64,000 nt of DNA from Haloferula luteola. GTDB taxonomy: Bacteria > Verrucomicrobiota > Verrucomicrobiia > Verrucomicrobiales > Akkermansiaceae. The stretch spans positions 1 to 64,000 of the forward strand of contig NZ_JACHFD010000015.1 of the NCBI RefSeq assembly GCF_014201715.1, written 5' to 3'. The position numbers were made by a program, and so were the translations under genes. The notes under the pieces are model-generated. The model was not told the DNA's origin. It was given only the letters and a program-made list of their open reading frames with translations, and made no database searches. Positions 12,971 to 29,798 of this stretch are shown piece by piece. Within the stretch, counting starts at the first letter, position 1. Each line of letters begins with the position of its first letter.

Positions 12971-15460
12971 TCAAACCTTTGCATCCCCGGCTCCACCCCA
13001 ATGCAAGCGCACGACCCGATCCAATTCCGCCGGAGTGATCGGCTTCGCCAAATAATCGTCCATCCCCGCCGCCAGGGCCACCTCCCGGTCCTCGCTGAAG
13101 GCGTGTGCCGAGAGACCGATGATCACCGCGCGATGGCGTCCTTGATGTTCCTCTTCCGCCCGAATCCGTCGAGTGACCTCCAACCCATCCATCCCCGGCA
13201 TCTCCACATCCATGAAAATCAACCGACAAGAGATCTCCGCGGACCGATGAAGAGCTTCCAAGCCTCCCCCTGCCTCCACCACTTGAAGCCCCTGCCGTTT
13301 CAGCAACGCACCCAACAAAGAACGGTTCACCTCGTTGTCATCGACGATCATCACCTCCCCTGAGCTCTCTGCTGGAGGATCGGCAGGTGGGGCCGCGGGA
13401 GATCCCTCCGTGGACGCCCCCTCCATGGCTTTGATCAACCAAGCAGCAGGATCCTTTTCAAATCGATCATCCGCGCCCGGACGAGGCCACCAGACACACG
13501 GGACGGGTGGGCTCTGCGACCTCGCCGCTGTGGCGACAGCCTCATCCCATGGGCCCTCGCCCATGCTCACCACCAAGGTCGGACGAGTAGAACGCATTTC
13601 ATGCACCGCATCCGCAGAGTCCGTCACCATCCGCAACGTGGCCCCCAGTTCATCGACCGCATGCAGCAACCTCGCATCCGGCTCGCCACCGATCCAAAGG
13701 ATTCTCCCCCCGGGTTTGACCGGTGCCGTGCCCTCTGGAACCTCAGGCAATCGAATCTCAAAGAAAAAGCCGCTGCCCTTTCCCGGCTCACTGGTGAAAT
13801 CGATCATTCCACCCATCTGGTCGACGATCCGCTTACAGATCGCCAATCCCAATCCACTCCCTTCGTAGGACCGGCTGCTCGACCGATCAATCTGGCTGAA
13901 CGGCGAAAACAACAACTCACGCTGCTCAGGATCGACGCCAATTCCCGTGTCCACCACCTCAAAGCGCAAGGTCTGCCGTTCCCCTCGTTGGACCCGGATC
14001 GAAACTCCCCCCTGCTGGGTGAATTTGATCGCATTCCCGACCAAATTGAACAGCACCTGCCGCACTCGAGGGCCATCCCCTCGAACCTGCGCGGGCACTC
14101 CCGGGTCCATTCGCTCCTCAAAAGTCAAACCCTTCCCTTGCGCAGCAGAGGACAAGAGCTCCACCACTTCAGCCACCATCGCCGCAGGTGAGAACTCGTC
14201 ATGCCGCAGCTTCAGAGCCCCCGCCTCCAGCCGCGAAAAATCCAGAATATCATTGAGCAAGGTCAACAGATGATCCCCGCACTTCAGCACGATATCAATG
14301 TGCCGTTGCTGCTCCCCATCCAGACCCGATTGTTTCAGCAATCCCGCGTAGCCCAGCACCCCGTGCAAGGGAGTGCGGATTTCATGGCTCATGGCCGCAA
14401 CGAAATCGCTCTTCACCCGTGTCGCCAATTCTGCCTCCCGCCGCGCCGTCACTTCCGCCTCCTCTGACTTGCGGATCCTTGCATACGTGATCCCAAACCA
14501 CGTCCCCATCAACACCACTGCCCCCAAAAATACTGCCAGCAAAAACCCGGACAAACGGTGCAGACTGGCCAAATGCCGTTCCTCTTCCGTCGAAAAGACC
14601 AAACCCATCGGCACCCCGGCGAGACTCACCGGATTGAATACCGAAATCACCTTCCGCGGCTCCGGAAAAAACACCTCATGAGCTCGGATACCTTCCAACC
14701 CGTCATCCAGCAACTGCCGGAAATAATCCATGCTGTCCTCCGTGACGCGAAAAGTCGATGACCGTTCAGGAGACAAGGGATGGCGAATCAAATCCGGTTT
14801 GAAATCCGGTCGGATCGACCAGATCCACAAATCCGATTGCCCCATCAAGTAACTTTCCAATCCGGATCGCAGAAACTCCCGGTGGCGCACGACCAAATGC
14901 CCGGCCGCCACCGGAGAATCCATTCCTTTGGGCAGCCATTCCGACAGCACCAGGAACTCCCCCTCGTGCCGCACGCGTGGTGTCCTCAGCCCGGACCATT
15001 GGGAGGGAATCGGACGAACCTGAGAAACACTCAAATAATTCCCAGGAAGAATCCGAATATCAAAAGACCCGCCATCCCGCAGATCCACCGTGATCCGGTC
15101 CACCCACTCCTGATGCCGGGCAAAGAAGCGCCGCACCAAGGCTTGGTTGCGACGGCTCTCCTCCGACGTGTCCCCCTTGCTCTGATAGCTGTGAAAAGCA
15201 TCCAATGACACCAGCAGCCGAAAATCGTCATGCAGCCCCTCAAACTGACTCTCCAAATGCCGTGAAGCACCCGCCGTGAAGGCCTTCAAGCGAGTCGTTG
15301 CTGCCGTCGTCTCCGCCCGCATGATTCGGCTCGAAAAGAACAACGCCACCGTCAAAAACAGCAACGAGAAGGCCAGCACATACCACAGGTTCAATGATCG
15401 CGAGAACCGAGCCACGCGACCCAGGGGCACCTCTCCACCCGATGGAGCTTTCTCCTTCAT
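12971..15460 (-). CDS. Hybrid sensor histidine kinase with two C-terminal receiver-like domains
   Basis: 829 residues from the ATG at 15460, which overlaps the upstream stop (ATGA). Transmembrane helices at about 24-42 and 304-326 bracket a periplasmic sensor region of some 260 residues. HisKA follows with the phosphoacceptor in AMSHEIRTPLHG (His near 359), then the HATPase with N, G1 and G2 boxes (NLVGNAIKF, DTGIGV, GSGLGLAI). A first receiver-like stretch (about 590-690) starts GRILWIGGEPDARLLHAV but has no phosphorylatable Asp. The last domain is canonical: VMIVDDNEVN, LIFMDVEMPGMDG, LSAHAF and a K in YLAKPI. It is the membrane kinase of the phosphorelay operon. Confidence 0.93.
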   Translation of the reverse strand: MKEKAPSGGEVPLGRVARFSRSLNLWYVLAFSLLFLTVALFFSSRIMRAETTAATTRLKAFTAGASRHLESQFEGLHDDFRLLVSLDAFHSYQSKGDTSEESRRNQALVRRFFARHQEWVDRITVDLRDGGSFDIRILPGNYLSVSQVRPIPSQWSGLRTPRVRHEGEFLVLSEWLPKGMDSPVAAGHLVVRHREFLRSGLESYLMGQSDLWIWSIRPDFKPDLIRHPLSPERSSTFRVTEDSMDYFRQLLDDGLEGIRAHEVFFPEPRKVISVFNPVSLAGVPMGLVFSTEEERHLASLHRLSGFLLAVFLGAVVLMGTWFGITYARIRKSEEAEVTARREAELATRVKSDFVAAMSHEIRTPLHGVLGYAGLLKQSGLDGEQQRHIDIVLKCGDHLLTLLNDILDFSRLEAGALKLRHDEFSPAAMVAEVVELLSSAAQGKGLTFEERMDPGVPAQVRGDGPRVRQVLFNLVGNAIKFTQQGGVSIRVQRGERQTLRFEVVDTGIGVDPEQRELLFSPFSQIDRSSSRSYEGSGLGLAICKRIVDQMGGMIDFTSEPGKGSGFFFEIRLPEVPEGTAPVKPGGRILWIGGEPDARLLHAVDELGATLRMVTDSADAVHEMRSTRPTLVVSMGEGPWDEAVATAARSQSPPVPCVWWPRPGADDRFEKDPAAWLIKAMEGASTEGSPAAPPADPPAESSGEVMIVDDNEVNRSLLGALLKRQGLQVVEAGGGLEALHRSAEISCRLIFMDVEMPGMDGLEVTRRIRAEEEHQGRHRAVIIGLSAHAFSEDREVALAAGMDDYLAKPITPAELDRVVRLHWGGAGDAKV

Positions 15461-16530
15461 TCCATCACGCTGAAGGCCAGCATCTTCCAGCGCAGGTGAC
15501 GAATGTCGCGGACATGCACCGCCCACCGCCGATCATCCAAATTCAGCTCAGCCTGCGAACATCCGGGAGCCAAGACCTCCCGGCCCATTGACCGAATCTC
15601 TGCCGAGCTGTTCTTGAGCAAATTGTAGTGCCCTGATCGAAAAATATCCGAACGCACCGTGTCCACATATCGATGGTTCTTGAGCGGGGGCAACCGCAGT
15701 ACCTGAATCATCGCCTCCCCCGTTGCCACCACCGTCCCATCCTCCGCCAAGAGGAGGAAAAACCGATTCTCCTTCTCCAAATCCAGCTCCCTCACCAGAG
15801 CCTCAATGGTGATGTCCAAGCCACAAACCCCTTCGAGTTGATCGCCTACATACACCGGTGCCACACACGACACCATCCATCCCCGTCCTGCCGGATCCAC
15901 GTAAGGCTCGTTCACCCACACGGCCGTGCGATCCGGGTTATGTCGCGCATCCGCTAGATAGTAAAAATTGTAGTCGGGAATGATCATTCCCGCCGGATAC
16001 TGAATCAACACATCGAAAGGCGGGTAGATGCGGTTGAAGCTATGCCGATCATTGTAGTAGGCCTGAACGACCGGAAGGTGCTCTTCCACCACGGATTTCA
16101 ACCCCGGGTCGACGGCCTCCGTCGCCAGCACCACCGCCTCAATCTCCGGGGACATCGGGACCGCTCCAGAAACAAAAACCGCAGGCTCTCCCGACGCGAT
16201 CGCATCCGGGCGATAAACAACTCCCTCCGCCGAAACCGCGTATTCCGACAAGTCGCGCCCCTCCGATAACTCCTGCAACCTGCCATAGGCATCGGCCACC
16301 TTCGCCACCAACTCCAGGCACTGAGCTTCCGTCTCCATCACCGAGGCCTCCAATCGGGCCGCCAACTCATCGAGCAAGGGCGGACGAGCGGCCATCGCCA
16401 CCTTGCGCCGACATCCGACCCAGATCGGAATCATGCACCCCCCGAGCCCGATGATCCAGACACGGCGGCTCAGCTTGCCCGGGGAACCATCGGGCTTCGA
16501 AGCAAAACGTCGTACCAATGGATCCTTCAT
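15457..16530 (-). CDS. Membrane-anchored sensor protein with PDC/dCache-like domain
   Basis: 357 residues. One N-terminal membrane anchor (VWIIGLGGCMIPIWVGC, possibly a lipobox-like end) is followed by an extracytoplasmic PDC/dCache-like domain: the strand-rich FNRIYPPFDVLIQYPAG segment, RTAVWVNEPYVDPAGRGWMV, then VAPVYVGDQLEGVCGLDITI, a typical Cache ending. There is no kinase or signalling domain, so it must signal through a partner. It overlaps the kinase downstream and the Hpt gene upstream by four bases each. It may be a ligand-binding subunit for the kinase. Confidence 0.75.
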   Translation of the reverse strand: MKDPLVRRFASKPDGSPGKLSRRVWIIGLGGCMIPIWVGCRRKVAMAARPPLLDELAARLEASVMETEAQCLELVAKVADAYGRLQELSEGRDLSEYAVSAEGVVYRPDAIASGEPAVFVSGAVPMSPEIEAVVLATEAVDPGLKSVVEEHLPVVQAYYNDRHSFNRIYPPFDVLIQYPAGMIIPDYNFYYLADARHNPDRTAVWVNEPYVDPAGRGWMVSCVAPVYVGDQLEGVCGLDITIEALVRELDLEKENRFFLLLAEDGTVVATGEAMIQVLRLPPLKNHRYVDTVRSDIFRSGHYNLLKNSSAEIRSMGREVLAPGCSQAELNLDDRRWAVHVRDIRHLRWKMLAFSVME

Positions 16531-16889
16531 GCAGGGTGACTCGCAAGGTTCTTCAGGAACAACTCCGCTTCGTCAAGAGAGGCCTCCATGGCCTGTCGCA
16601 CCCAAGGATCTTCCTTCCCGCCCTGCGCGATGCCGGCTTCCAACCGGGCAAATTCCGCAGCCAAACTCTTCAGGCCCACCGCCGCCACCGATCCCTTCAG
16701 CCGGTGCGCCAAGCTTCGTCGCGCATCCGCCTCCAGCACTTCTCCTCCGTCTCCACGCCACTGTCTCCACCCCTCGTTCGCCTGCCGGAGCGCACGCTCC
16801 GCCAAGGACAGGAACTCATCCACCCCCAGCGCCTCGATCAAGGCTCCAATCAAATCTCCGTCGAGACCCTTTGCAGGAGAAATCTTCAT
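16527..16889 (-). CDS. Stand-alone Hpt phosphotransfer protein
   Basis: 120 residues. The Hpt signature AHRLKGSVAAVGL gives the phosphorylatable His at about 62, within a four-helix arrangement and a C-terminal helix (ASLDEAELFLKNL). It would move phosphate from the kinase receiver to the response regulator. Start and stop overlap or abut its neighbours: 12 bases from the regulator stop and a four-base overlap with the sensor gene. Confidence 0.88.
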   Translation of the reverse strand: MKISPAKGLDGDLIGALIEALGVDEFLSLAERALRQANEGWRQWRGDGGEVLEADARRSLAHRLKGSVAAVGLKSLAAEFARLEAGIAQGGKEDPWVRQAMEASLDEAELFLKNLASHPA

Positions 16890-16901
16890 CTCACACCCTC
16901 C

Positions 16902-18287
16902 TCAAAATTTCATCTCCCGCAATTCGTGGCGGTCCAACATGTTGTAAACCGTCCGCAGACTCACCCCTAAGGCCTTCGCGGCCCGCCGCCGATTTCCCTT
17001 CACCGCCCGCAGCGCCTGAATCAGCGCTTCCTTCTCCAGATCACGCAGTCGGTCGCTGGTCTGGCCCAATCCCGGGTCACCCAAGCGATGCCGCCAATGG
17101 GGCAGTTGCTCCTCGAAGTGAGCAGCCGTGATTTCCCCATCGAGAGCCGCAGCCAACACCGCTTTCACCGAGGCACGCACTTCAAACAAATTCGCCGGCC
17201 ATCGATAGTCTGCGATCCAATTCTTGGCCGCGCGATCCAGCATCGGGCGTTTCACCTTCTGGGCCACGCATTCTCTCGCCAAACAGTATTCCCAATAGGC
17301 GACCAAATCCTGCACCCGCTCCCGCAGCGGCGGGAGCGCCAAGTGCAACACCGAGAGTCGATAGACCAGATCCTCATCGAGTTCCGCCAATCCCAACAAC
17401 TGTCTCAGTGATCGATCACTGACCGCCACCAATCGGCAACCCGGTGGCAATGCCGCCAACTTCAACCGCTCCAACAGGGCCTCCTGAACTTCAGGATCCA
17501 AATGCTCAAAACGTCGCAAAACCACCGTCGCGGGGTGAGGCGACTCCAGCACGCCCACCCTCCGCATGTGCCCTTCCAAAGCCCCCGCCCGTTCCACCTC
17601 CCCGCCAAACAACCGACTGAACAGCTCGTCAGACGTCCCCGATCCACAATCAATCTCCACCCATTTGGCTTCCTCCGCCGTGGTCAAATCATGCACCCGC
17701 CGCGCCAACCGCACCTTGTCCAGCCCCGGCTCCCCTTCGATCAACAGCGGCCGATCGCTCACCACCGCCTGCCGAAACAACTCCCGAACCCGCAGCATGG
17801 AGGGTGACCGCCAAACAAATCCTTCATCGAATCCGATCTCGGCCGGTCTGCGCAACTCCCCTTGATCGACGATGCCTCGAATCCGCTCGAAAAACACCGC
17901 CGGCACGATGGGCTTCACCACGTAATCCACCGCCCCCGCCTTCAGGGCCCGCACCGCATCCTCCGCCCGGTCCCTTGCCGTCAGCATCACACACGGCAGT
18001 CGCGGGTATCGCCCCTGAATCTTCTGCATCAGGCCGATCCCGTCACCATCCGGAAGCCCAAGATCGAGGATCATCAAATGCCACGGACACGTCTCCCCGG
18101 CATCGCCAAGGCGATCTTCAACCTCCTCGCACGAACCAAACACATCGACCTCAAACCCAGCTTTTCCCGCCAACTTCGCCACCAGTTCCGCCGAGACACA
18201 ATCGTCCTCCACCACCATCAACCGGGATCGCAACGCTCCCCCCGGTCCCGTAGGCGTTCGACAGCTTGTCTTGGGAAAATCACTCAT
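16902..18287 (-). CDS. Response regulator of NtrC architecture with degenerate AAA+ domain
   Basis: 461 residues from the ATG at 18287. The receiver (about 20-140) is canonical: LMVVEDDCVSAEL, phospho-Asp in LMILDLGLPDGDG (about 75), MLTARD and VVKPI. The central domain aligns with sigma-54 activator ATPases but its Walker A reads GEPGLDKVRLAR instead of GESGTGKE. The GAFTGA loop is absent (VERAGALEGH in its place) and the Walker B acid is lost (TVVLRRFEHL instead of FLDEI). The C-terminus is a normal Fis-type helix-turn-helix (NRRRAAKALGVSLRTVYNML). It probably regulates as a DNA-binding protein without ATP-driven sigma-54 remodelling. First gene of the operon. Confidence 0.9.
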   Translation of the reverse strand: MSDFPKTSCRTPTGPGGALRSRLMVVEDDCVSAELVAKLAGKAGFEVDVFGSCEEVEDRLGDAGETCPWHLMILDLGLPDGDGIGLMQKIQGRYPRLPCVMLTARDRAEDAVRALKAGAVDYVVKPIVPAVFFERIRGIVDQGELRRPAEIGFDEGFVWRSPSMLRVRELFRQAVVSDRPLLIEGEPGLDKVRLARRVHDLTTAEEAKWVEIDCGSGTSDELFSRLFGGEVERAGALEGHMRRVGVLESPHPATVVLRRFEHLDPEVQEALLERLKLAALPPGCRLVAVSDRSLRQLLGLAELDEDLVYRLSVLHLALPPLRERVQDLVAYWEYCLARECVAQKVKRPMLDRAAKNWIADYRWPANLFEVRASVKAVLAAALDGEITAAHFEEQLPHWRHRLGDPGLGQTSDRLRDLEKEALIQALRAVKGNRRRAAKALGVSLRTVYNMLDRHELREMKF

Positions 18288-18560
18288 GAATCCACTGCGA
18301 CCCTCCGTCTCAAGGCCCTCCGGGGGTCGATCCTCCCTCGAAAGCCGCGGAACCTCAAATCGAAATGAGATATCGACCGAGATTGCACCCTCATCCGCCG
18401 ATGCTCGGAGTGCAAAACCTGCATGGATTCCCCCCTGCAATCCTTGGACCCTCAGGCACCTTCCCCCTCATACTCCCTCCCGCCGTCTGGGGGGACGGCC
18501 ACCAACTCGCTCCGGTCCCTCGGGACGAGAGGGCCCATCAAAAAGGCCCACCGATCGGAG

Positions 18561-18624
18561 TGGTCGGGCGGAATCAGAGTGTGGACACCCTTGGCTGTCC
18601 ACTCCTGGGGGAGCCGCCCGACCA
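18561..18624. ncRNA. Candidate structured RNA or regulatory stem-loop
   Basis: TGGTCGGGCGG (18561-18571) pairs perfectly with CCGCCCGACCA (18614-18624). A second stem is nested inside: GTGGACA (18581-18587) with TGTCCAC (18596-18602). Two coaxial perfect stems in an untranslated stretch suggest a folded transcript; strand is unknown because the structure is symmetric. No T-run follows, so it is not a standard terminator. Confidence 0.4.
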
Positions 18625-18664
18625 CCGGTCAACCACTGCCTTCCGAGGCTTCGAGCCAACAAAC

Positions 18665-18679
18665 GTGCAACACTTGCAC
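18665..18679. promoter_or_regulatory. Operator-like palindrome
   Basis: GTGCAACACTTGCAC is a perfect 6-3-6 palindrome located between the divergent operons, a size and symmetry typical of dimeric regulator sites. The binding protein is unknown. Confidence 0.3.
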
Positions 18680-18796
18680 ATCACGAGACCGCCCGCCGGT
18701 TCTCGCCCCGCCCTTCACCCGCCAACATGGCACCGGGAAATGACGTCACCACGCTGAGAGGAAGTTTCCCTGACTTCACTGTAGAGAGGTTATCGT

Positions 18797-18842
18797 AAGC
18801 CCCGGGAGGAGCCCGCCCAGAAGAGCTTCCTTCCCGGGGCTT
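18797..18842 (+). promoter_or_regulatory. GC-rich stem-loop upstream of PEP-CTERM gene
   Basis: AAGCCCCGGGA (18797-18807) pairs perfectly with TCCCGGGGCTT (18832-18842) around a 24-base loop, about 150 bases before the gene at 18990. There is no T-run. It may be a leader structure or attenuator of the operon. Confidence 0.35.
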
Positions 18843-18989
18843 CTCGATTCGGTGGTCACGCCCCTCTCCTTTTGGGCAATCTACCGTCGATCGTTGGCAA
18901 CCCACCGTTAGCCCGATCCCAGCACGTCGGAGCATCTTCCCGCCCCCTCCCCCACATCTCATCATCCGGGGGGGCGAACTCCGACTAAC

Positions 18990-19622
18990 ATGAAATACCT
19001 CATCGCCCTAGCCTCCGTCCTCGGACTGTCCCACGGCGCCGTCCTGCTCGATACCATCGACCTCTCCAGCAGTGAGCAGTCGACCACCGTTTGGACCGAC
19101 CTTACTTCCTCCAACACCGGCCTTGCTGCGGATTCCGGAAGCGGCTCCCTCAGCGTCGTTTCCCCAGGCTTTCAAGCCTCCTCGGGCCTCTACAGCTTCA
19201 TGGCCGACTACGGAACCTCCGTCACCCAGACCACGAGCTTCGATATCCAATCGGTGGTGTTCCAAATCGAGCTCTCTCCCAACGGAGAATTCCCTTACTC
19301 CGGGGGTCCCCTCCTGACTCTTACCACCACCTCTGGAACGCTCCAATTGGCCGCCACGGCCTTTGCTGCAGGTGCTACTGAATGGCGCACCACCGGAATG
19401 GGAGAAACCGCCTACTCCTCCTACGCCTGGCAATGGGACCTCTCCGCATACGGAGACACCATCACCTCCGTCACCGTCGATACGCCACTCGCCGTTCACA
19501 GCTCGGTGACCGGAGCCCGCATTGATGTTGGCGACTCCTTCCAGGCGGTCGTCGTGCCCGAGCCCTCCGCGCTCCTCCTCTCACTCGCAGGGGCCGGCTT
19601 CCTGTTCCGCCGCCGTCGCTGA
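18990..19622 (+). CDS. PEP-CTERM protein, first gene of heme-type uptake operon
   Basis: 210 residues. Signal peptide MKYLIALASVLGLSHGAVLL. The body is beta-rich, with a core SFDIQSVVFQIELSPNGEF and a later YAWQWDLSAYGDTITSVTV. The C-terminus is VVPEPSALLLSLAGAGFLFR plus RRRR, an exosortase sorting signal. It is clearly homologous to the protein at 35930-36763 (QTLVFQIQIG, YALQWDLSG), defining a paralogous family. Being first in an operon with a heme-type receptor suggests a surface ligand-binding or capture role, which is inference. Confidence 0.85.
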   Translation: MKYLIALASVLGLSHGAVLLDTIDLSSSEQSTTVWTDLTSSNTGLAADSGSGSLSVVSPGFQASSGLYSFMADYGTSVTQTTSFDIQSVVFQIELSPNGEFPYSGGPLLTLTTTSGTLQLAATAFAAGATEWRTTGMGETAYSSYAWQWDLSAYGDTITSVTVDTPLAVHSSVTGARIDVGDSFQAVVVPEPSALLLSLAGAGFLFRRRR

Positions 19623-19647
19623 ATTCCAACACCTCCATCGCACCGCC

Positions 19648-20577
19648 ATGAACCCTTCCCATTCGGCTCTCGCCGGACTCCTCGTCGTTATCGCCCCCCT
19701 GACCGCAGCGGAACCGACTTCCTTTGAAAAAGATCGCGCCGCCATCCTCGCAATGGCGGGCGAATTCCAGGTCTCATTCCACTTCCAGGAAACCGTTCCT
19801 CTTCAAAAGGACTACACCCCGACGGAAAAGCCCTACGACGAGTCCGCCTTCGAAACCGTCAAGCTCGTCGAAGACGAGGGCACCCGCATCACCCTCCAGC
19901 ACCTCCTTCAGGTCGGCCCCACCGTCGTCAAACATTGGGCGCAAACTTGGACCTACGAAGACTCCAGTATCCTCGAATTCGAAGGACACCACCACTGGAC
20001 CGTCCGGCAACTTGATCCCGAGACCGTCCGCGGAACCTGGACTCAAAAGGTCACCCAGATCGACGATGCTCCCCGCTACGAAGGCTTCGCCGCCTGGGTT
20101 CATCAAGGAGACTCCAGCACCTGGACAGCCACTGCCCACCGTCCGAAACCACGACGTGAAAAAGATCGTGACGACTACGACATTCTCTTCGTCACCAACC
20201 GTCACACCGTCACCACCAACGGCTGGTTCCACGAACAAGATAATGCCAAATGGCGGGTCCGCGATGGTCGCCAGGCCCCCCTCTGCCGTGAGGCGGGACT
20301 CAACACCTATCGCCGCATCGAAGGACACGACTTCGCCAAGGCGAATACCTACTGGCAGAAAACCGAGAATTTCTGGAAGCAAGTTCGCGACACCTGGGAT
20401 CAACTGGTTCCCCCCAGCGGCACCATCGAAGTCAGCCCCTCGTCCGATCTAGGACGTCGCTTTGACGTGATCGGCAGCCTCTCCGAAGAAGCCGAGGACG
20501 GTGAAATGCCCGCTGCCGAGGAAATCCGCAAGTCGGTCGCCTCCTTCCTCAAGATCACCTCAGAACCCTCTCCGTGA
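19648..20577 (+). CDS. DUF6607-like secreted protein
   Basis: 309 residues from the ATG at 19648, which gives a signal peptide (MNPSHSALAGLLVVIAPLTA then AEP). The mature protein has the beta-strand and aromatic pattern I associate with DUF6607: FQVSFHFQETVPL, LQHLLQVG, VKHWAQTWTYEDSSILEF, WTQKVTQIDDAPRYEG, and ALCREA-type APLCREAGLNTYRRIEGHD. The biochemical role is unknown to me; it probably acts in the periplasm. It starts 25 bases after the PEP-CTERM gene and its stop overlaps the GTG start of the receptor gene. Confidence 0.75.
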   Translation: MNPSHSALAGLLVVIAPLTAAEPTSFEKDRAAILAMAGEFQVSFHFQETVPLQKDYTPTEKPYDESAFETVKLVEDEGTRITLQHLLQVGPTVVKHWAQTWTYEDSSILEFEGHHHWTVRQLDPETVRGTWTQKVTQIDDAPRYEGFAAWVHQGDSSTWTATAHRPKPRREKDRDDYDILFVTNRHTVTTNGWFHEQDNAKWRVRDGRQAPLCREAGLNTYRRIEGHDFAKANTYWQKTENFWKQVRDTWDQLVPPSGTIEVSPSSDLGRRFDVIGSLSEEAEDGEMPAAEEIRKSVASFLKITSEPSP

Positions 20578-22868
20578 ACGTCCCGCGCATCACGTTCACG
20601 ATGGCGGTGCTCGCGCTTCCCACCGCGGCGGAGGAATCCTCCGCCGCGGTGCCGGAAGGCAGCATCCTGACTGGAGAGATCGATCCTCTCGTGATCACTG
20701 TGGCAACTCGCCAACAGACGGCATGGATCGATTCACCCGGGTCCGTACTCCAGGCCTCCGCCGAAGATCTCATCCGCCAAGGCACTTTCGACCTCGCTGG
20801 ATTCGCCAAGTACGATCCCACCGTCAGCTTGCCCTTTGATTTCACCAGCGGCGATGGAGCCTTCGCCTACGGCCAGAGTGGCTACGGGTCCATCAACATC
20901 CGCGGGGTGGAGGGAAATCGCATCGCCGTCGAACTCGACGGCGTGCGCCAACCTCCGCAATACGTCTCCACCTCCTTCGACCTCGGGGCCTCCGATGGAG
21001 CGGGCGGCATTGGACGCGACTATTTCGATCCCGCCATGTTCGAAATGATCGAAGTTCTCAAAGGGGGAGGCAGCGCCCTCTACGGCAGCGACGCTCTCGG
21101 CGGAGTGGTTGCCTTCCGCACCCCCGACCCAGAGACCTTCCTCAAAGGGCAATCCTCCGGAGGACTTCTCCGCACCCAGTATTTTTCGACGAATCAAAGC
21201 TTTGCCACGCAGGTTGGCGGAGCCCTTCGGCAGGGTGATTCCGCCGTCATGCTTCTCTATGGTGGTCGCTGGGGAGAGGAAACCGCCAACCATGGCGAAG
21301 TTTCGCCCAATCCCTCTGACTTCCATTCGCTTTCAGCCCTGCTCAAGGCCGAGCACCGCTGGAACGATCACACCTTCCGCCTCGCCATCGAACTCTTCGA
21401 TCGGGAGACCTTCACCGACGCGCGCAGCGCGGTGACCTCGGCATTTCCTGTATTCACCGATTTCGTTTACAACAAGCAGTACCTCGATCGCCAACGCGTC
21501 AGCCTGCGCTGGGAGTTCGAACCCGCCTCTCCCTGGCTCGACCGCCTCGACACTCACCTTTACTGGCAGCACGCAGGTTCCCTCAGTGAAAATCAGGCTG
21601 CCTCACTTCCCCTGGTGATTCTCGGCACCCCCATTCCCGGAACCGAACGCTTCCGACGGCAACGCATCACCTTCGATACTGACATCGCTGGCTTCACCAC
21701 GACCACCCGTCACCAATTCGAAGATCCCCTCGGTGGTGAGCATCGACTCACCAGTGGCATCGATCTCTCACTGGAGTCCGGGGAAAACTCCTTCGTTCGG
21801 TTCGACTCTGGCGCGACAACCGATGTCAACCGCACCGCGTTCGCGCCCACCGACACCCTCCGTGCCGGCTTTTTCACCCAGGATGAAATCCAAATCGGCG
21901 ACCGCTGGACTCTCACCCCCGGCCTCCGTCTCGATTGGCAATCCATCGACCCTCAACCCAACGCGGCCTACTTGGCCCGACTCAATGAACTCGGTCGCTT
22001 CAGCCAGGAACCACCGACCGATTTCCAAAATCTGGCCCTCTCACCCCGGCTCTCTCTCACCTGGCGTCCCGTCGAACCGATCAGCGCCTATTTCAACTAT
22101 GCCCACGGCGTCCGGAACCCCTCAGCGGAAGAACTCTCCATGGTGTTTGACCATCCTCCGTCAGGTGGCAGTCCGGCCGGATCCATGACGGTCCCCAATC
22201 CCGATCTGGAAGAAGAAACCAGCGACGCATTCGAAATCGGAATCAAGTCCGAAGGCGCCATCGGCCGCATCCAAGCCGCCGCCTTCTACACCCATTATCG
22301 GAATTTCATTGAAAACGGAATCCCCACAGGCGCCACCACCACCGACGGCCGGGACATCCTCACCACGATGAACCGCAGCGAGGCGGAGATCTACGGGCTC
22401 GAACTTGCAGGACAACTCGAACTCGGATCCCTGCACAGCGCTGCCGATGGCTGGCAACTCGGCCTCGCCGCCGCTTCGACCCGTGGCACCAACCTGACCG
22501 ATCACCTTCCTCTCAACTCGATCGAGCCAGTTCAGGCCATCGCCCACATCGGCTACGAGAACCCCAGTGGAACCTTCGGAACCCGGCTCACCGGCACCTG
22601 GACGGCAGCCGTCGATCGTGTCGACAACACCACCAACCAGGGAAACTACTTCCTCCCGCCATCCTGGTTCACGCTCGACTTGGGCATGTGGTGGCAGCCG
22701 GTCGAGGACTTCCAGGTCCACCTTGGCCTGAACAACCTGCTCGACGAAAAATATTGGTCCTGGGGGAGCGTCCGCCGCGGCAATGGCCACCTCGGGGGCA
22801 ATACCATCGACGACCGCACGACCGCTCCAGGCCGCAACTTCAGTCTCTCCGTTACCAAGACTTTCTAA
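20574..22868 (+). CDS. TonB-dependent outer-membrane receptor, heme type
   Basis: 764 residues from a GTG that overlaps the previous stop. Signal peptide, TonB-box-like DPLVITVATR, plug domain (YGSINIRGVEGNRIAVELDG and IEVLKGGGSALYGSDALGG) and a 22-strand barrel ending in aromatic TKTF. In the barrel a FRAP-like RNPSAEELS box, a His in VFDHPP and the NPDL box (VPNPDLEEETS) appear in the order that defines heme/hemoglobin receptors, where the His between the boxes helps bind heme. Substrate is therefore probably heme; another metal-porphyrin is possible. Confidence 0.85.
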   Translation: MNVPRITFTMAVLALPTAAEESSAAVPEGSILTGEIDPLVITVATRQQTAWIDSPGSVLQASAEDLIRQGTFDLAGFAKYDPTVSLPFDFTSGDGAFAYGQSGYGSINIRGVEGNRIAVELDGVRQPPQYVSTSFDLGASDGAGGIGRDYFDPAMFEMIEVLKGGGSALYGSDALGGVVAFRTPDPETFLKGQSSGGLLRTQYFSTNQSFATQVGGALRQGDSAVMLLYGGRWGEETANHGEVSPNPSDFHSLSALLKAEHRWNDHTFRLAIELFDRETFTDARSAVTSAFPVFTDFVYNKQYLDRQRVSLRWEFEPASPWLDRLDTHLYWQHAGSLSENQAASLPLVILGTPIPGTERFRRQRITFDTDIAGFTTTTRHQFEDPLGGEHRLTSGIDLSLESGENSFVRFDSGATTDVNRTAFAPTDTLRAGFFTQDEIQIGDRWTLTPGLRLDWQSIDPQPNAAYLARLNELGRFSQEPPTDFQNLALSPRLSLTWRPVEPISAYFNYAHGVRNPSAEELSMVFDHPPSGGSPAGSMTVPNPDLEEETSDAFEIGIKSEGAIGRIQAAAFYTHYRNFIENGIPTGATTTDGRDILTTMNRSEAEIYGLELAGQLELGSLHSAADGWQLGLAAASTRGTNLTDHLPLNSIEPVQAIAHIGYENPSGTFGTRLTGTWTAAVDRVDNTTNQGNYFLPPSWFTLDLGMWWQPVEDFQVHLGLNNLLDEKYWSWGSVRRGNGHLGGNTIDDRTTAPGRNFSLSVTKTF

Positions 22869-22870
22869 CC

Positions 22871-23659
22871 GTGAAATCCCTCGCCATCCTGGCCCTCGCC
22901 ACCTCTTTCCAGGCCCAGACTCTGACACCGCTTCAGGACAGCGACGTCTACGCCTACCTTGATCGCCCGACCAGTTCCATCGCCACCCTCGGCGTCAACG
23001 CCAGTGGCACTGGTGCCCCTCACTCGCAACGGTCGCTCATCCAATTCGATCTCAGCTCCCTTCCCCTCGGTCCAGAGCAGCTTGGCTCTGCAAAACTCCG
23101 GCTCTTCGTCATCAAACCTGATCCCACTTACGGTAACCTTGGTACAGGGGACGTCGAAATATTCCGACAAGGAGGGACATGGGCAGTAGCCACACTTCGC
23201 TGGAGCCAACTGCAACCCGCGGAATCGCACGGCCTGTTCGCCATCACCGACGACTCCGCCGACCAGTGGATCGAAATCGACGTCACCACCCTGGTTCGCG
23301 AGTGGCTCGACGGAACCTATCCCAACTATGGGTTTCTCCTGCAAGCCGCGGTGGAGGACCCCGCCTCCCTCAATGTCACCTTTGCCTCGATGGAAGTCCC
23401 CGGCTATCGCCCACAACTCGTTCTCACCGAAGCCGAGGTTCAGCCAACCCTTTTCATCGATCGGCAGGACCACCAGACCGTCCTCCGCTGGCCAGCGAGC
23501 ACCTCCTGGACTCTAGAACAAAGTCCATCGCTTGCTCCCGGATCCTGGTCCCCCGTCGAAGCGTCCCCGACCATCCTCGACGGAGAAGCCGTCCTCGAAC
23601 TGGATCCCCCATCATCGAAGTCGTTTTTCCGGCTCAACTCTGATCCCAGCGCCGATTGA
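22871..23659 (+). CDS. Secreted protein with DNRLRE-like domain
   Basis: 262 residues starting at a GTG two bases after the receptor stop. A short signal peptide (KSLAILALATSFQAQ) is followed by a domain of the DNRLRE/CBM96 type: LTPLQDSDVYAYLDRP, RSLIQFDLSSLPLG, AKLRLFVIK, and WIEIDVTTLVREWLDGTYPN then YGFLLQA. The last 70 residues form a small beta domain common in Verrucomicrobia (LRWPASTSWTLEQSPSLAPG ... FFRLN). It probably binds at the cell surface as an accessory to the receptor. No C-terminal sorting tail. Confidence 0.75.
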   Translation: MKSLAILALATSFQAQTLTPLQDSDVYAYLDRPTSSIATLGVNASGTGAPHSQRSLIQFDLSSLPLGPEQLGSAKLRLFVIKPDPTYGNLGTGDVEIFRQGGTWAVATLRWSQLQPAESHGLFAITDDSADQWIEIDVTTLVREWLDGTYPNYGFLLQAAVEDPASLNVTFASMEVPGYRPQLVLTEAEVQPTLFIDRQDHQTVLRWPASTSWTLEQSPSLAPGSWSPVEASPTILDGEAVLELDPPSSKSFFRLNSDPSAD

Positions 23660-23812
23660 CTGGCAGGGCTCCCCTGTCAGGATGGATCCTCCCGCGTTGC
23701 CTGATTGTCCATGGACGTCGGCACGCAAAGCAAAATATGCGCAATCCACCATCCACCTCTCGCAAGCATCCGTTAGCCGACCTCCCCACGCCCTCCTAAA
23801 AACGGGGCCGAC

Positions 23813-24739
23813 ATGAAAGCTTCCACGCTCGTCGGCCTTCTAGCCGGCACTCTTTTTCTCTCGGCCTGTCGCAAACCCATCTCCGAAACCACCCCTCCCT
23901 CCTCCCATACGGAAAAAACTGCCGTGCTCATCGTCAGCCACGGCTCCCATTCCGAAAGCTGGCGGTCGATGCTCCTCGACATCGAAAGCCAGGCTGAGCC
24001 CGACCTCCTGGCCAGCCCCCACATCGACGATGTCCGCTCGGCTTTCATGGAATACACAGAACCCTCCATCGCCACTCGCCTGAAGGAGTTCGACTCCGAA
24101 GGCTTCACCCATGTCATCCTCGTCCCCGTGCTCCTCACGGTGAGCGACCATTCATTCGACGACATTCCTGTCATCGCTGGGATGCGCGAGGATCCCTCCA
24201 CACAGTCCAGATTGCAGCTCGAGGGCATCGAAACCTACCAGGCAAATGCCGCCGTAACCCTCACCCCACTTCTCGATTTTCCGGACCTCCTCCACGAAAA
24301 CATCGCACGCCGAGCTGCGGCGATGAGTTCCGACCCCACTCAAGAAGGGCTCGTTCTGGTCGCCTACGGAAGTGAGCCCTACAACGCAGAGTGGACTCAA
24401 CTGGTCACCGAGCTCGGACAAAGCACCTGCCAGAAACTCGGCTTCCCCGAGTTCTCATTCGCTTGGTGCGGCCACATCGCCCACTACCAGTCCGAACCGA
24501 CTCAGCAAGCCATCGAACAGATCCTCACCCATCAAAAAAGAGCTCTGGTCGTCCCGCTCCTTGTCGCCATTGATGAGAACTTTCAGGGGCGGATCATTGG
24601 CGGAGCTGTCGATGCGGTCGCACAGCCGGACCGAGTTGCCTATCGCCACGATGCTGTTCTTCCGGACGCGCGGATCCCGAAATGGGTAGTGGAAACCAGC
24701 CTACAACACGCTGCCCAACGGTCATCCGGTCAGCCATGA
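23813..24739 (+). CDS. Lipoprotein class II chelatase (CbiX/CbiK-like), extracytoplasmic
   Basis: 308 residues. The lipobox LSAC at about residues 16-19 predicts a lipidated protein outside the cytoplasm. Two CbiX-like halves are present. The first has AVLIVSHGSHSESW (HGS metal-site motif) and the diagnostic VPVLLTVSDHSFDDIPVIAG. The second has GLVLVAYGSEPYN and VVPLLVAIDENFQGRIIGG, where the His is replaced, so only one half looks catalytic. Cytoplasmic relatives insert Co or Fe into sirohydrochlorin; periplasmic relatives have been linked to heme handling. With a heme-type receptor upstream, metal insertion/removal or holding of an imported tetrapyrrole is plausible. Confidence 0.8.
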   Translation: MKASTLVGLLAGTLFLSACRKPISETTPPSSHTEKTAVLIVSHGSHSESWRSMLLDIESQAEPDLLASPHIDDVRSAFMEYTEPSIATRLKEFDSEGFTHVILVPVLLTVSDHSFDDIPVIAGMREDPSTQSRLQLEGIETYQANAAVTLTPLLDFPDLLHENIARRAAAMSSDPTQEGLVLVAYGSEPYNAEWTQLVTELGQSTCQKLGFPEFSFAWCGHIAHYQSEPTQQAIEQILTHQKRALVVPLLVAIDENFQGRIIGGAVDAVAQPDRVAYRHDAVLPDARIPKWVVETSLQHAAQRSSGQP

Positions 24740-25278
24740 AACGCGGAAGTCGCTACTGGTTGCTCACGGTTCATCGCGATGGTGGATACTTCTTCGCGGG
24801 CATGGTCCTCATCTTTGCCCTTTCCGGCATCGCTCTGAATCATCGAGACGATTGGGATCCGAATTTCGTCATCGAACGCCAGGAAATCCATCGTGCTCCC
24901 GCGGCCTACGACCGCGAAACCCTCCAAGCTTGGCTCGTCCAGGCTGGCATCTCCGATCCCTATCGCGCGCACGACTTCCCCTCTCCGCGGAAAATCAAAG
25001 TCTTCACCCGTTCCGGTTCCCTGCTCTTCGACCTCGAAGCAGGAGACGGCGACTATGAAGCGATTCGACGGCGCCCTCTCTTCTACCAGCTCAACTCTCT
25101 CCACCGACGATCCGGGACCGCGTGGAAACTGTATTCGGACTGCTTCTCGATGGCCCTCATTGCCATTTCTCTGAGCGGCCTTTTCCTGGCCCGCGGTCGC
25201 TATGGATTTCGCTGGCGGGGAGCCGCCCTCACCGCTCTCGGACTGCTGGCTCCCTTGGCGTTCCTTTGGGCTGGCTGA
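24736..25278 (+). CDS. PepSY-associated membrane protein
   Basis: 180 residues from an ATG that overlaps the chelatase stop (ATGA). One membrane helix near the N-terminus (YFFAGMVLIFALSGIALNHR) carries the GIALNH signature of PepSY-associated TM proteins; a periplasmic domain of about 85 residues follows, then two C-terminal helices (FSMALIAISLSGLFLARGR, ALTALGLLAPLAFLWAG). A related protein is at 47518-48168. Such proteins accompany iron/heme uptake genes and are suspected to serve in electron transfer across the inner membrane. Last gene of the operon. Confidence 0.78.
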   Translation: MKRGSRYWLLTVHRDGGYFFAGMVLIFALSGIALNHRDDWDPNFVIERQEIHRAPAAYDRETLQAWLVQAGISDPYRAHDFPSPRKIKVFTRSGSLLFDLEAGDGDYEAIRRRPLFYQLNSLHRRSGTAWKLYSDCFSMALIAISLSGLFLARGRYGFRWRGAALTALGLLAPLAFLWAG

Positions 25279-25292
25279 TGGCTGGCTACGCC

Positions 25293-28200
25293 TCAGGCGA
25301 GCTGCCATCGACGTGCGATCGCTTCCAGAACTTCTCGATCAGATGGGGATTCTTCCCGGCCAAAGTGGGTCGCTTCCAAGCTGGTGATCTCCTCTTCAAT
25401 CTCTGCTTTCGCCGTCGCAGAGAGATGGCCCCGCTCTTGGATCCTGCGCAGGTATCCAATCACGCTCACGGCATGAATCCTCGACGGCAATGGGAGCTGA
25501 TCCACCACCTCGACCTCGGGCCGCCTGCGACGTTTGGCCATCGCCGTTCCACCCAAGGCAACCACTGCGAGCAGACCGCCTCCAATCCAGGCCCAGACCG
25601 GTTGCCGTTCCGAGACACCTAACATCACCTCCTCGCCCACCGGCTGGAGATCCACATCCACATAGCGTTGTCGCAACAGCCCGTCCTCCTTCGCCACCTC
25701 CGCCTTCACCGCAGGAAAGTGAAAGCTTGCAGGCAAGACTCCGTCTTGAGGCTTCAACTCAATCCGCCATTCATGTTCCGACAGGGGCGCCAGATCTTCC
25801 TCCGCAGCATCAAGCTCCACCACTCGTAGACCGCGATCCTCAATGGCCCCTTTTTCAAAACCCTCCATCGCTCCGAGTAGCCCCTCCAAATCCGGCACCA
25901 ACCCATGAGCGCTTGCCTTCACTTCCAAATACAAACTTCCTTTCTCTGCATGGCTACGCTCATCCAGGGTCTGCACCACCTTGAGATCTCGGAAGGGTCG
26001 GGGTTCCGCTTCACCCGCATCGATCGGAACCTCAGATGAAGCGATAGGAAGCACCACGTACCCCGACGTATCATTGAAATCGAGGTCGATCTTCAACGGC
26101 GGGACCCGGTCCACCTGCGGACCCTTTGGCTTCAGAAGAAAATAGGCGTAAGGCGTACGCCTCCATCCGAACTCGGCATCCGTGTGTGACTCGATCTTCT
26201 CACTGTGAAAGGTCAACGAGACGACCTCAAAGTGTTCCTCCAACACCGCCCGCGCTGCTTTCTCAAACTTATCTCGATAGTCCTCAGTCGGGCGACCGAA
26301 GTTCCAGGCGTAGGGCGAGTTGTTTTGATTCTGAAGATACCGCTGAAATCCACCCGCCTCTCTCTCAATCTCCTGAGTGTGCCGTAGATCCACCCGAAGT
26401 CCAAACGGATCATCCGTGCCGACACGATCGGAGCCGTCAATCTCCGCGCGCAGCTCAATCTCGGTGATGAGATCCCGATAGTAGGCCAGCACCTCATCCG
26501 CATCGCGCAGGGCCTCATGCCCCCCCGCAATTTCTGACGCCGCCTCCAGATATCGGAGTTTGAGATCCGGCGCGACGTTGGCGAGGCGGTTGTTGAGCGT
26601 GGTGGCAAAAGCTTTGCGATGCCGCTCGCCCAACTCACCAGGAAGAGCATCCAGCGCCGATTTGATCTTTGGAAACTCAGCCGGCGTGGCCACGTGATGG
26701 CTTTTCAATGCTTCCAGAGTCGGTGAACCGAGGGCGGCAAAGAACCAAGTTTCGAAAGGCTCACTGGATTCCTGAGTCAGGTCCTCGACCGGCAGGGTCT
26801 TCACATAGCTCGCAGCGGCAGCACCGAGGTGATCGAGCGCGGCCCGCTTCTCAGCGGCATGCTGGTTCTCCGGCCCCAGGCTGCTACGGTAATTGCTGTG
26901 TTCAAACTGCAAGGCCGCTAGCTGTTCCTCCAATCGCCAGGCCCCCTCTGGGTCATGAGTCAGAGCCTTCTCCAAGACAGCTTCGGCAGCGACATACCCC
27001 TCAAGGATTTGCTCTTGCAGCTCCTTATCCTTACGCTTGGTCTGATAGGCCTGTTGCAACTTGGGATTGGGCCAGAGACCTGCGAGATTCAGGCGCATTT
27101 TCCCAACGAGTGCCGCTAAAGTCTTCGAGTCCAAGGTCTCCGTGTTGCCAAATACCGAATCGACGGCTTCCACCCGCCACACCTCCGCCTGACTGTGACA
27201 GGAAATGAAGGCGTTCGCCAATTCCGCGTAGAAGCTCTCCCCCAGATCGAGGGCCGCAATCCCTTTCACCAGCCCTGCCAATTCGACCAAATTCCTTTCC
27301 TGCTTCGATCGCGTCAGCGGGATCGAACCCGACTGGTTGTTGAACCCATAGAAATACATGTAGCGCGAACGGTAGTCCTGTTCCTCGTTCGGATTGTGGT
27401 TCTGTGTCCAGACGCGGATCAACTCGCGCACCAATTCTTTCGCCTGCTTTGGATCGGTGGCGGCAATGGACTTGATCCAAGGAAGGGCCGCATTTTCCTC
27501 CTTCACCTTCAGCAGCAGATGGGCCGTTGCCAGCATGCAAGCATCCCGCGTGGAAGCATCAACCGCCTTCAGCCACCTTTCATCCGGGCGGTAATCGAGA
27601 AGTTGACCCGCCGGGATCGGTCGAGCTCCCGATCCTTGATAGCCCGTATCCGGCCGTTCAAAGAATAAATTACCCCAATCATCGTATCTCGGAACCATTC
27701 TCCGAGAATTACTCTGATCTTTCAATTGAGTCACCTCTGCCTCGTGCTCCCACTGTTGGGCAAACAAAGCAAAGATCCCCGACCACTCAGAAGCGTCGAA
27801 TTGCTCTCCGGCGAGCAGAGTGGTCACAGCGGCATGCTGCAGCTTCAGTTGCTCGAGCCGGACCGCTTCATTAGGATTCTCCTGACTTTGCGCGGTCAGA
27901 CTCCCCAAAGACGCCAGGAGCTCCACGCCTTCTCCTTGAGCATCGGCAAAGGTTCTTTCCAGCCACTTGCGACCCGTTTCATCTCCGAGTTCTGGAATGA
28001 TCGACAAAGCTCGAAACAATGCCTCGGCTTTGGCATCGGTGGGAGCTTTTGAATCCGAAAGGAAGGAAGTGGAAATTTCCCAAGCCAAGGGCATCGCATC
28101 CTTACCAGCAGCAGAAGGATCGGTGCGAAACCACTCCACCCAGTACCGGGCAATCAAATTCAGAGCAGCATAGTCGTTCTTCTCCCTGGAAGCCTCCAAC

Positions 28201-28982
28201 GAGGGCAAAAACTTTCCAGCTTCCACCACAAAACCGGAATCGAGAAGAAACTCGGCAGCGCGATTCCGATCAGCGAGATCTTTCCCCCCAAATTGAGAAA
28301 TCCCAGAATCCAAGGTGTCGAAAAACGCCTGAGGTGGCCGAGGATGAGTCGGCAGCAACTTGACCACCTTTGCCATCGCCTCCTTATCGGGTGGCTTCGG
28401 TGCAGCAGCGATCAATCCCAAGACATCATCCGGAGACATCACGGCCGACTGTTGGTACGGTTTCGCCCCTTGCAGTGCCAGGGCCGGGGCCGGCTGCACT
28501 TGCAAGACTGACGATAATTTTTCAAGCAGCGATTGATAGGCCTCCATCGCCATCGACTCCGGCAACTCGCCGAGGAAGACCTTCACCTGATCCCACCTCC
28601 CGAGCGCGACGTCGCGACGATAGGCATTCGCCCGGTTCCCGAAATCGGCCAGCGCGCGATCGTCCTCAGAGGATTCGGCGGGTTCCACCTTCGCTTCACC
28701 CTCCTCTGCAGTCGCGCCACTTTTCTCCCCCTCTTCCGCAGCCTCATTCCCTTGAGCTTCTTCCAACCTCACCGCCAAGATTCCCTGCGGAGTGCGGTCG
28801 ATCTTCAACTCGTTCAGCACCGCCATCTGGCGTTGTTCGGGAGTGACCTTCGGCTTCTTGCGGCTCTGCTCAATGAGCTGGCGCAGTTGGTTAAAATCCA
28901 GCCCCTGCTCCGCCACCCCTTCTTGGGCCATCAAGGGCATGGTGATCAGAGCGAGAGAAAGCGTGGCCAATCGGGCATTCAT
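25293..28982 (-). CDS. Very large membrane-anchored protein of the MoxR/Bat operon
   Basis: 1,229 residues from the ATG at 28982. Signal peptide MNARLATLSLALITMPLMAQ. A long extracytoplasmic part of alpha-helical repeats (about 50-880, TPR/armadillo-like by eye) is followed by a beta-rich region (about 900-1140), one transmembrane helix (VWAWIGGGLLAVVALGGTAM) and a cytoplasmic helical tail of about 80 residues. No enzyme motif was found. It is the last gene of the operon and fills the position that BatD/BatE-like proteins occupy elsewhere. It converges with the PepSY gene, 14 bases apart. Confidence 0.75.
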   Translation of the reverse strand: MNARLATLSLALITMPLMAQEGVAEQGLDFNQLRQLIEQSRKKPKVTPEQRQMAVLNELKIDRTPQGILAVRLEEAQGNEAAEEGEKSGATAEEGEAKVEPAESSEDDRALADFGNRANAYRRDVALGRWDQVKVFLGELPESMAMEAYQSLLEKLSSVLQVQPAPALALQGAKPYQQSAVMSPDDVLGLIAAAPKPPDKEAMAKVVKLLPTHPRPPQAFFDTLDSGISQFGGKDLADRNRAAEFLLDSGFVVEAGKFLPSLEASREKNDYAALNLIARYWVEWFRTDPSAAGKDAMPLAWEISTSFLSDSKAPTDAKAEALFRALSIIPELGDETGRKWLERTFADAQGEGVELLASLGSLTAQSQENPNEAVRLEQLKLQHAAVTTLLAGEQFDASEWSGIFALFAQQWEHEAEVTQLKDQSNSRRMVPRYDDWGNLFFERPDTGYQGSGARPIPAGQLLDYRPDERWLKAVDASTRDACMLATAHLLLKVKEENAALPWIKSIAATDPKQAKELVRELIRVWTQNHNPNEEQDYRSRYMYFYGFNNQSGSIPLTRSKQERNLVELAGLVKGIAALDLGESFYAELANAFISCHSQAEVWRVEAVDSVFGNTETLDSKTLAALVGKMRLNLAGLWPNPKLQQAYQTKRKDKELQEQILEGYVAAEAVLEKALTHDPEGAWRLEEQLAALQFEHSNYRSSLGPENQHAAEKRAALDHLGAAAASYVKTLPVEDLTQESSEPFETWFFAALGSPTLEALKSHHVATPAEFPKIKSALDALPGELGERHRKAFATTLNNRLANVAPDLKLRYLEAASEIAGGHEALRDADEVLAYYRDLITEIELRAEIDGSDRVGTDDPFGLRVDLRHTQEIEREAGGFQRYLQNQNNSPYAWNFGRPTEDYRDKFEKAARAVLEEHFEVVSLTFHSEKIESHTDAEFGWRRTPYAYFLLKPKGPQVDRVPPLKIDLDFNDTSGYVVLPIASSEVPIDAGEAEPRPFRDLKVVQTLDERSHAEKGSLYLEVKASAHGLVPDLEGLLGAMEGFEKGAIEDRGLRVVELDAAEEDLAPLSEHEWRIELKPQDGVLPASFHFPAVKAEVAKEDGLLRQRYVDVDLQPVGEEVMLGVSERQPVWAWIGGGLLAVVALGGTAMAKRRRRPEVEVVDQLPLPSRIHAVSVIGYLRRIQERGHLSATAKAEIEEEITSLEATHFGREESPSDREVLEAIARRWQLA

Positions 28983-29084
28983 AGCATCAGAGATCAGGAA
29001 ACAGAGGTGGAAAATGGGAGTCAAAGACGTGGCTCTCCCGCCCGGGGTCTCGGCGGGACGCCAACAATGAAATTCAGAGCGAGA

Positions 29085-29786: not shown

Positions 29787-29798
29787 GGCAGGTTTCGA

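Follow-up and report, generated by a model that had tools for sequence, protein, structure and literature searches.

Positions 1 to 64,000 of contig NZ_JACHFD010000015.1 from Haloferula luteola (assembly GCF_014201715.1), the stretch analysed here and called the window, carry at 18990-25278 a run of six genes in which that of CbiXlp, a predicted exported CbiX-type class II chelatase lipoprotein, overlaps that of a short PepSY membrane protein. Protein families, predicted fold, metal triad, conservation and gene pairing were computed directly, and they establish that the chelatase-redox gene pair is real and conserved, often in heme-uptake surroundings. The locus bears on the question of how iron is removed from imported heme, with the ring spared, in bacteria that lack HmuS. 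Its best reading, for and against which the balance is about even, is that it serves to acquire iron from heme by means of an extracytoplasmic dechelatase coupled to a redox partner. The broader proposal, which is tentative and falls somewhat short of an even chance, is that CbiXlp and its PepSY or flavinylated NosR-like partner form a two-part machine, widespread in several phyla, that would release Fe(II) from heme with the ring intact, using electrons delivered via the inner membrane.

An exported class II chelatase with an intact metal triad

Conservation was followed in 82 loci, namely the window, locus L022 and the best 80 of 145 relatives from a peptide-pattern scan of a genome collection. 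The set includes near-identical strains (Flammeovirga, Runella, Nitrospira), and start codons in locus measurements were taken as the first in frame. The features of the window on which the argument depends are as follows.

23813..24739, + strand: CbiXlp, predicted exported CbiX-type class II chelatase lipoprotein, 308 residues (PF01903, 43.5 bits, curated cut-off 22)
23867..23869, + strand: lipobox Cys19 (LSAC) of CbiXlp, by sequence reading
23939..23941, + strand: CbiXlp His43, metal triad, aligned with SirB His10 (82/82 loci)
24050..24052, + strand: CbiXlp Glu80, metal triad, aligned with SirB Glu43 (82/82 loci)
24149..24151, + strand: CbiXlp His113, metal triad, aligned with SirB His76 (82/82 loci)
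24464..24475, + strand: W218-C219-G220-H221 in the C-terminal half of CbiXlp, invariant (82/82 loci)
24736..25278, + strand: short PepSY membrane protein (PepSY_TM_like_2; PF16357, 51.2 bits, cut-off 27)
20574..22868, + strand: heme/hemoglobin-type TonB-dependent receptor, 764 residues, GTG start (TIGR01786, 356.9 bits, cut-off 323.75)

A preliminary description of the sequence had recognized a CbiX/CbiK-like protein with the lipobox LSAC, and this lipobox is indeed present. The CbiX match spans residues 43-123, whereas the CbiK profile PF06180 stays below its cut-off (21.9 vs 26.2 bits). An AlphaFold2 model from a 69-row alignment, with a predicted local distance difference test score (pLDDT) of 88.7 and a predicted template-modelling score (pTM) of 0.82, predicts the two-domain class II chelatase fold. 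The top structural match of this model is SirB (5zt7_A; Z 20.7, root-mean-square deviation (rmsd) 3.3, 242 residues aligned). Behind it rank ferrochelatases, CbiK of S. typhimurium, the periplasmic D. vulgaris CbiK (2xvx; Z 17.7, rmsd 3.0, 232 aligned) and P. gingivalis FetB (9b86; Z 17.0, rmsd 3.4, 230 aligned). The SirB metal site is described as His10, Glu43 and His76 (PMC11301274), with which H43, E80 and H113 of CbiXlp pair in a sequence alignment, as the metal site proposed in the preliminary description would predict. All three residues are invariant in the 82 loci and, judged from the SirB match, would sit in the tetrapyrrole cleft. An alignment of the two CbiXlp halves, made to place the equally invariant W-C-G-H, was too weak (probability 5%). 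A strict lipobox pattern matches 33 of the 82 CbiXlp sequences; many of the others have, by eye, a Bacteroidota-style Cys or a plain signal peptide, and the L041 and L095 sequences begin too late for their export signals to be judged.

A nearly constant redox-type partner

A short PepSY gene adjoins the CbiXlp gene, on the same strand, in 66 of the 82 loci, and a gene for an FMN_bind and Fer4_5 (NosR-like) membrane protein takes this position in 15. No locus has both and one (L095) has neither, which puts a redox-type partner beside the chelatase in 81/82 (partner families were verified on L026, L034 and L090). The gap from the chelatase gene to the next is at most 30 nucleotides in 74 of 80 measured loci, and in the window the chelatase stop and PepSY start overlap by four (ATGA at 24736-24739). 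That the chelatase gene so rarely occurs without an adjoining membrane redox-type gene points to reduction within the reaction, and the earlier hint that the PepSY protein might supply electrons gains support from this pairing.

The [ST]GAT motif is the usual site of covalent flavin attachment. It is present in all 15 FMN_bind proteins, and the NosR-like partner is probably flavinylated, judging from this motif. The 15 loci form one well-supported group in the tree (100/99), and the swap from PepSY to NosR-like partner thus counts once. At L034:8917-12588, a single frame of 1223 residues comprises both an FMN_bind/Fer4_5 protein and a TonB receptor, either as a true fusion or through a sequencing error.

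The PepSY protein of the window has one PepSY domain and three long helices interpreted as membrane helices. It scores just below the cut-off for the FoxB-type PepSY_TM family (PF03929, 27.2 vs 28.8 bits), its AlphaFold2 model reaches pLDDT 79.7 and pTM 0.57, and a profile of the PepSY alignment found no match among PDB sequences. Three histidines are conserved (His31, His54 and His141, numbered from 24682), with H54 and H141 invariant and H31 present in at least 90% of 52 rows. Three would suffice for one bis-His heme in the short PepSY family, and the protein is probably a heme-carrying electron conduit.

The constancy of triad and partner bears on a different, unlikely, role for CbiXlp, that of a periplasmic or surface heme carrier (hemophore) that holds heme for onward transport, with the PepSY protein serving another step. 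Such a role would fit the description of P. gingivalis IhtB as a putative heme-binding lipoprotein (PMC10913741) and the larger, apparently triad-less paralogs found beside or near receptors in Nitrospira, in which the chelatase fold may work without catalysis. It would also fit the absence of ferrochelatase from all 18 genomes of the genus, the window's own included, so that intact heme may be wanted. A triad invariant in 82/82 loci is, however, unexpected for a mere carrier, and the nearly constant redox partner also speaks against this role.

Heme-uptake surroundings

The receptor upstream of the chelatase exceeds the cut-off of the heme-receptor family TIGR01786 and falls slightly under that of TIGR01785 (315.5 vs 316.85 bits), which agrees with the heme type first assigned to it. 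FRAP-His-NPxL is the motif of heme/hemoglobin TonB receptors. The window receptor had been read as FRAP-His-NPDL; the His and NPDL hold, but the stretch is GVRNP...FDHPP...NPDL, a VRNP-His-NPDL variant of the motif. Of 55 strong receptors near CbiXlp, 16 fit a simple FRAP/NPxL pattern, among them that of the window, and the His is present in 14 of these 16.

Across the 82 loci, a TonB receptor lies within 4 kilobases (kb) of CbiXlp in 54 and an HmuY gene within 6 kb in 40, as scored with our own profiles (HmuY seeds verified by Pfam). Per kb, receptor genes number 0.096 up to 4 kb from CbiXlp and 0.019 at a distance of 4-8 kb, and 50 of the 58 that lie nearby share its strand. L040 illustrates the usual Bacteroidota order: HmuY with a type IX secretion (T9SS) tail, CbiXlp, PepSY, receptor, HmuY. 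A ChaN-type heme-binding protein occurs in six closely related loci within the FMN_bind group. Among the six window proteins, PF14064 (HmuY) has no match at expectation values (E) up to 1.

Ten further receptors were scanned, nine from CbiXlp loci and one from L116, a locus of a congener. Those of L085 and L116 exceed a heme-receptor cut-off (2/10), and those of L090 and L082 score best with heme-receptor families, under the cut-off. The L049 receptor scores best with vitamin B12 receptors, at 194 bits vs a cut-off of 600, and that of L068 with another family, also under the cut-off. The receptors of L026, L040, L046 and L093 have no match at 1e-40, and the term "heme" at those loci rests on HmuY.

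These scores also bear on the identity of the ligand. It is very unlikely, though conceivable, that CbiXlp handles the metal of a corrinoid or of a cobalt/nickel or copper complex and not that of heme. CbiX-type enzymes do handle Co and Ni with sirohydrochlorin (PMC11301274), the L049 receptor leans, far below the cut-off, towards B12 receptors, and a TonB receptor family that accompanies PepSY_TM proteins has been linked to copper (PMC13038864, PMC12914433). The window, L085 and L116 receptors, on the other hand, lie above heme-receptor cut-offs, HmuY and ChaN are the recurring neighbours, and no cobalamin riboswitch reaches the gathering score in window positions 14000-30000 or in 18 loci. 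The only Rfam match in that scan was an S-adenosylmethionine (SAM) riboswitch in L052. Cobalamin regulation of the locus was rejected on the same riboswitch result.

Genome setting

The window's genome (95.5% complete) has no match to PF02514 (HmuS/CobN) and two FeoB_C matches. The ferrochelatase family has no match in it or in 17 other genomes of the genus (completeness is 90% or more for 16 of these 18), whose members may rely on imported heme or on a different route of synthesis. A further role considered for CbiXlp, distinctly unlikely, is that it inserts or exchanges metal, making an extracytoplasmic metalloporphyrin from imported porphyrin, with the redox partner giving Fe(II). The missing ferrochelatase would suit this role, metal insertion is the normal direction of class II chelatases (PMC11301274), and FetB is reported in a review to make Mn-protoporphyrin IX (PMC13402209). 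However, a ferrochelatase match is present in 39 of 50 other CbiXlp-carrying genomes tested, so that CbiXlp is no general substitute, and the 17 ferrochelatase-less congeners are without a high-scoring CbiXlp as well. The candidate explanation of the exported chelatase as a general ferrochelatase stand-in was rejected on the same 39/50 count.

Proposed mechanism

From these observations we infer heme as the ligand, dechelation as the direction and a flow of electrons towards it. The TonB receptor, by its family, would take up heme, and the class II chelatase cleft of CbiXlp would hold the tetrapyrrole, with H43, E80 and H113 at the metal. The PepSY membrane protein would reduce ferric to ferrous heme, so that the chelatase could work in the reverse direction and give off Fe(II) for FeoB; in one lineage the NosR-like, probably flavinylated protein would take the PepSY role. 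More speculatively, the PEP-CTERM and DNRLRE proteins encoded in the window might be surface helpers at the place that HmuY holds elsewhere. HmuS is described as converting heme to protoporphyrin IX (PPIX) and Fe(II) in a reaction dependent on reduced nicotinamide adenine dinucleotide (NADH), in which reduction of the bound heme was observed and the electron route is not known (PMC12583661). As HmuS needs heme reduction, it is chemically plausible for a dechelatase to have a redox partner. The original suggestion that the lipoprotein acts on the metal of an imported tetrapyrrole thus receives support of sequence and context from the CbiX-type protein with its intact triad, the heme-type receptor and the HmuY and ChaN neighbours in relatives.

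Several observations weigh against such a redox-coupled dechelatase. The genome has a heme oxygenase match (46.5 bits vs a cut-off of 23), making cytoplasmic heme breakdown possible. No receptor or HmuY is nearby in 26 of the 82 loci, some from contig ends, and L024 and L025, the nearest relatives of the window, are among them; only one of the nine scanned receptors from CbiXlp relatives is above a heme-receptor cut-off. The partner swap is one event, which means that the 15 FMN_bind loci are not independent. PepSY-receptor pairs are described as serving siderophores too, and perhaps copper (PMC13038864, PMC13001220). The match of the PepSY model (pTM 0.57) to FoxB 7abw_B is weak (Z 4.7, rmsd 3.8, 74 aligned, rank 16 behind unrelated folds), and the conserved His of the short PepSY proteins number three, not four, in the 52-row alignment.

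Distribution and mosaic make-up

CbiXlp records span at least eight phyla (Bacteroidota, Planctomycetota, Verrucomicrobiota, Nitrospirota, Chlorobiota, Ignavibacteriota, Pseudomonadota and Myxococcota), mostly as metagenome assemblies. The nearest relatives of the window CbiXlp are those of L024 (Verrucomicrobiota, 60%) and L025 (Planctomycetota, 56%), which have PEP-CTERM genes upstream and no receptor nearby. The window sequence has a long branch and its exact tree position is unsure. The other Verrucomicrobiota rows, L083 and L022 (of genome G053), are placed elsewhere in the tree, and this separation from the window suggests that CbiXlp was transferred between lineages. Among 57 genomes, the window's own included, only the latter and G053 have a high-scoring CbiXlp; 15 more have weak CbiX matches (E 2e-5 or worse), and three that were inspected are a different, two-HGS CbiX. 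In a phylum draw of 387 genomes, with up to five first-look candidates scored per genome, only the window's own genome matched. The chelatase is thus rare in Verrucomicrobiota, and the conservation expected for the operon is found for the chelatase-redox pair in other phyla but not for the whole gene order across Verrucomicrobiota (2/57 and 1/387 genomes).

The remaining genes of the window operon are the following.

18990..19622, + strand: PEP-CTERM surface protein, 210 residues (TIGR02595, 23.4 bits, cut-off 16; Pfam PEP-CTERM 20.1 vs 20.7, slightly below)
19648..20577, + strand: DUF6607 protein, 309 residues (PF20311, E 1.8e-62)
22871..23659, + strand: DNRLRE/CBM96 protein, GTG start, signal-peptide-like N-terminus (NF033679, 97.6 bits vs 34; PF24517, E 5.3e-16)

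The whole operon is a mosaic. In the congener G003 (L116), DUF6607, receptor and DNRLRE genes occur in the same order and the chelatase is absent; at L116:1678-5946 a right-handed beta-helix protein comes after this trio, where the window has the chelatase pair. DUF6607, of which no mention was found in the open-access literature, is present in one of the 82 CbiXlp loci. A class draw of 141 genomes yielded it in 11, counting the window's own, and only one of 11 DUF6607 neighbourhoods from other genomes (L116) has a receptor match. Upstream PEP-CTERM-like tails on the same strand are found in L024, L025, L083, L085 and the window (in L085 below the Pfam cut-off, in L083 by pattern only), yet the window PEP-CTERM protein itself has no homolog in the 82 loci. 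L085 has a CBM96 protein with such a tail and an HmuY-PKD protein upstream of receptor and CbiXlp. DUF6607 and the PEP-CTERM protein were each considered as core parts and rejected on these counts, and the inclusion of an exosortase-sorted surface protein in the system, as first put forward, is not supported.

Two kinds of paralog accompany CbiXlp in other lineages. The Nitrospira loci encode larger chelatase-like paralogs of 504-664 residues, apparently without the metal triad (in a loose alignment), which adjoin a TonB receptor or stand one gene off; they are perhaps tetrapyrrole carriers derived from a dead chelatase. The Chlorobi loci have a second CbiXlp paralog, with intact triad, right after the PepSY gene.

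Larger Nitrospira paralogs: L082:1547-3235, L094:1227-3221, L100:40-1980, L086:4045-5793, L102:3889-5658, L074:12798-14312
Second Chlorobi CbiXlp paralogs: L088:9535-10497, L077:9445-10551, L089:2503-3138

Arrangement of the locus and its flanks

On re-reading the window, the six genes all lie on the + strand, as previously reported, and of three reported stop/start overlaps two are genuine, that at the PepSY start given above and that of the DUF6607 stop with the receptor start (GTGA at 20574-20577, four nucleotides). The receptor stop (TAA, 22866-22868) and the DNRLRE start (GTG, 22871) are two nucleotides apart. The gap from the DNRLRE to the chelatase gene is 153 nucleotides, and for this reason a single transcript of all six genes is only a possibility. 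A scan for sigma-70 promoters, the one promoter type covered, found none. At 18797-18842, 5' of the first gene, lies a perfect 11-base-pair inverted repeat (AAGCCCCGGGA / TCCCGGGGCTT). Possible regulators are encoded upstream and divergently, on the - strand at 12971-18440: a response regulator of the sigma-54 type and, judged by eye, a hybrid sensor kinase. A second TonB receptor gene on the + strand, directly followed by one for a 303-residue protein without a Pfam match, occupies 41175-44053; next to it, the opposite strand encodes a cobalamin-independent methionine synthase.

Comparison with known systems

In the open-access literature (most subscription journals lay outside the search), we found no description of a CbiX-type branch that is constantly paired with a redox protein, nor any paper that treats chelatase, heme, PepSY and TonB-dependent jointly. 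The nearest precedent is the Iht system of P. gingivalis, whose IhtB and FetB we take to be one protein. As in the window, a TonB receptor lies beside an exported chelatase-like lipoprotein. In the published description, IhtB is a lipoprotein homologous to CbiK that adjoins the receptor and is thought to remove heme iron (PMC10913741). CbiXlp, in contrast, is CbiX/SirB-like by the profile scores given above, no ABC (ATP-binding cassette) family is found among the six window genes, whereas Iht comprises the receptor IhtA, IhtB/FetB and the ABC transporter IhtCDE, and the available description of Iht names no PepSY protein (PMC10913741), which the window has. An exported chelatase beside a receptor is thus not new in itself, as the label of a distinct acquisition system had implied. 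HmuS likewise releases Fe(II) and PPIX, is encoded with HmuY/HmuR and needs reduction (PMC10913741, PMC12583661), but it is membrane-bound, belongs to the CobN-like class I proteins and has a different fold.

The sirohydrochlorin chelatases SirB and CbiX have the fold and metal triad in common with CbiXlp; they act in siroheme/B12 synthesis, whereas CbiXlp is exported, often lies in heme-uptake loci and has the C-terminal W-C-G-H invariant in 82 rows. The periplasmic CbiK of D. vulgaris (2xvx) is an exported class II chelatase as well, but of CbiK type.

Reduction of ferrisiderophores is the role described for some PepSY_TM proteins encoded next to receptors, and FoxB/HiuB resemble the window PepSY protein in adjoining a TonB receptor, in conserved His and in a proposed reductive release of iron (PMC13038864, PMC13001220). 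FoxB has two PepSY domains, at least four membrane helices and four His ligands and serves a siderophore (PMC13038864), in contrast to the one domain, three helices, three His and putative heme substrate of the window protein. BT2063-2065 of B. thetaiotaomicron (PepSY, DUF4374, TonB receptor) also group an iron-regulated receptor with an extra protein and PepSY, but form a xenosiderophore system without a chelatase (PMC10434189). PepSY genes close to hmu genes are named in a Porphyromonas figure legend (PMC12106395); in their accessible text, neither of these two papers mentions CbiK or a chelatase, and PMC10434189 does not mention CbiX either. What is new relative to these systems is a CbiX-type exported chelatase branch tied to a dedicated redox partner, for which the function set out above is proposed. 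If correct, this proposal would assign a role to a group of short PepSY proteins and to one of NosR-like flavoproteins, and the label "sirohydrochlorin chelatase" of the CbiXlp family could be replaced by a more fitting one.

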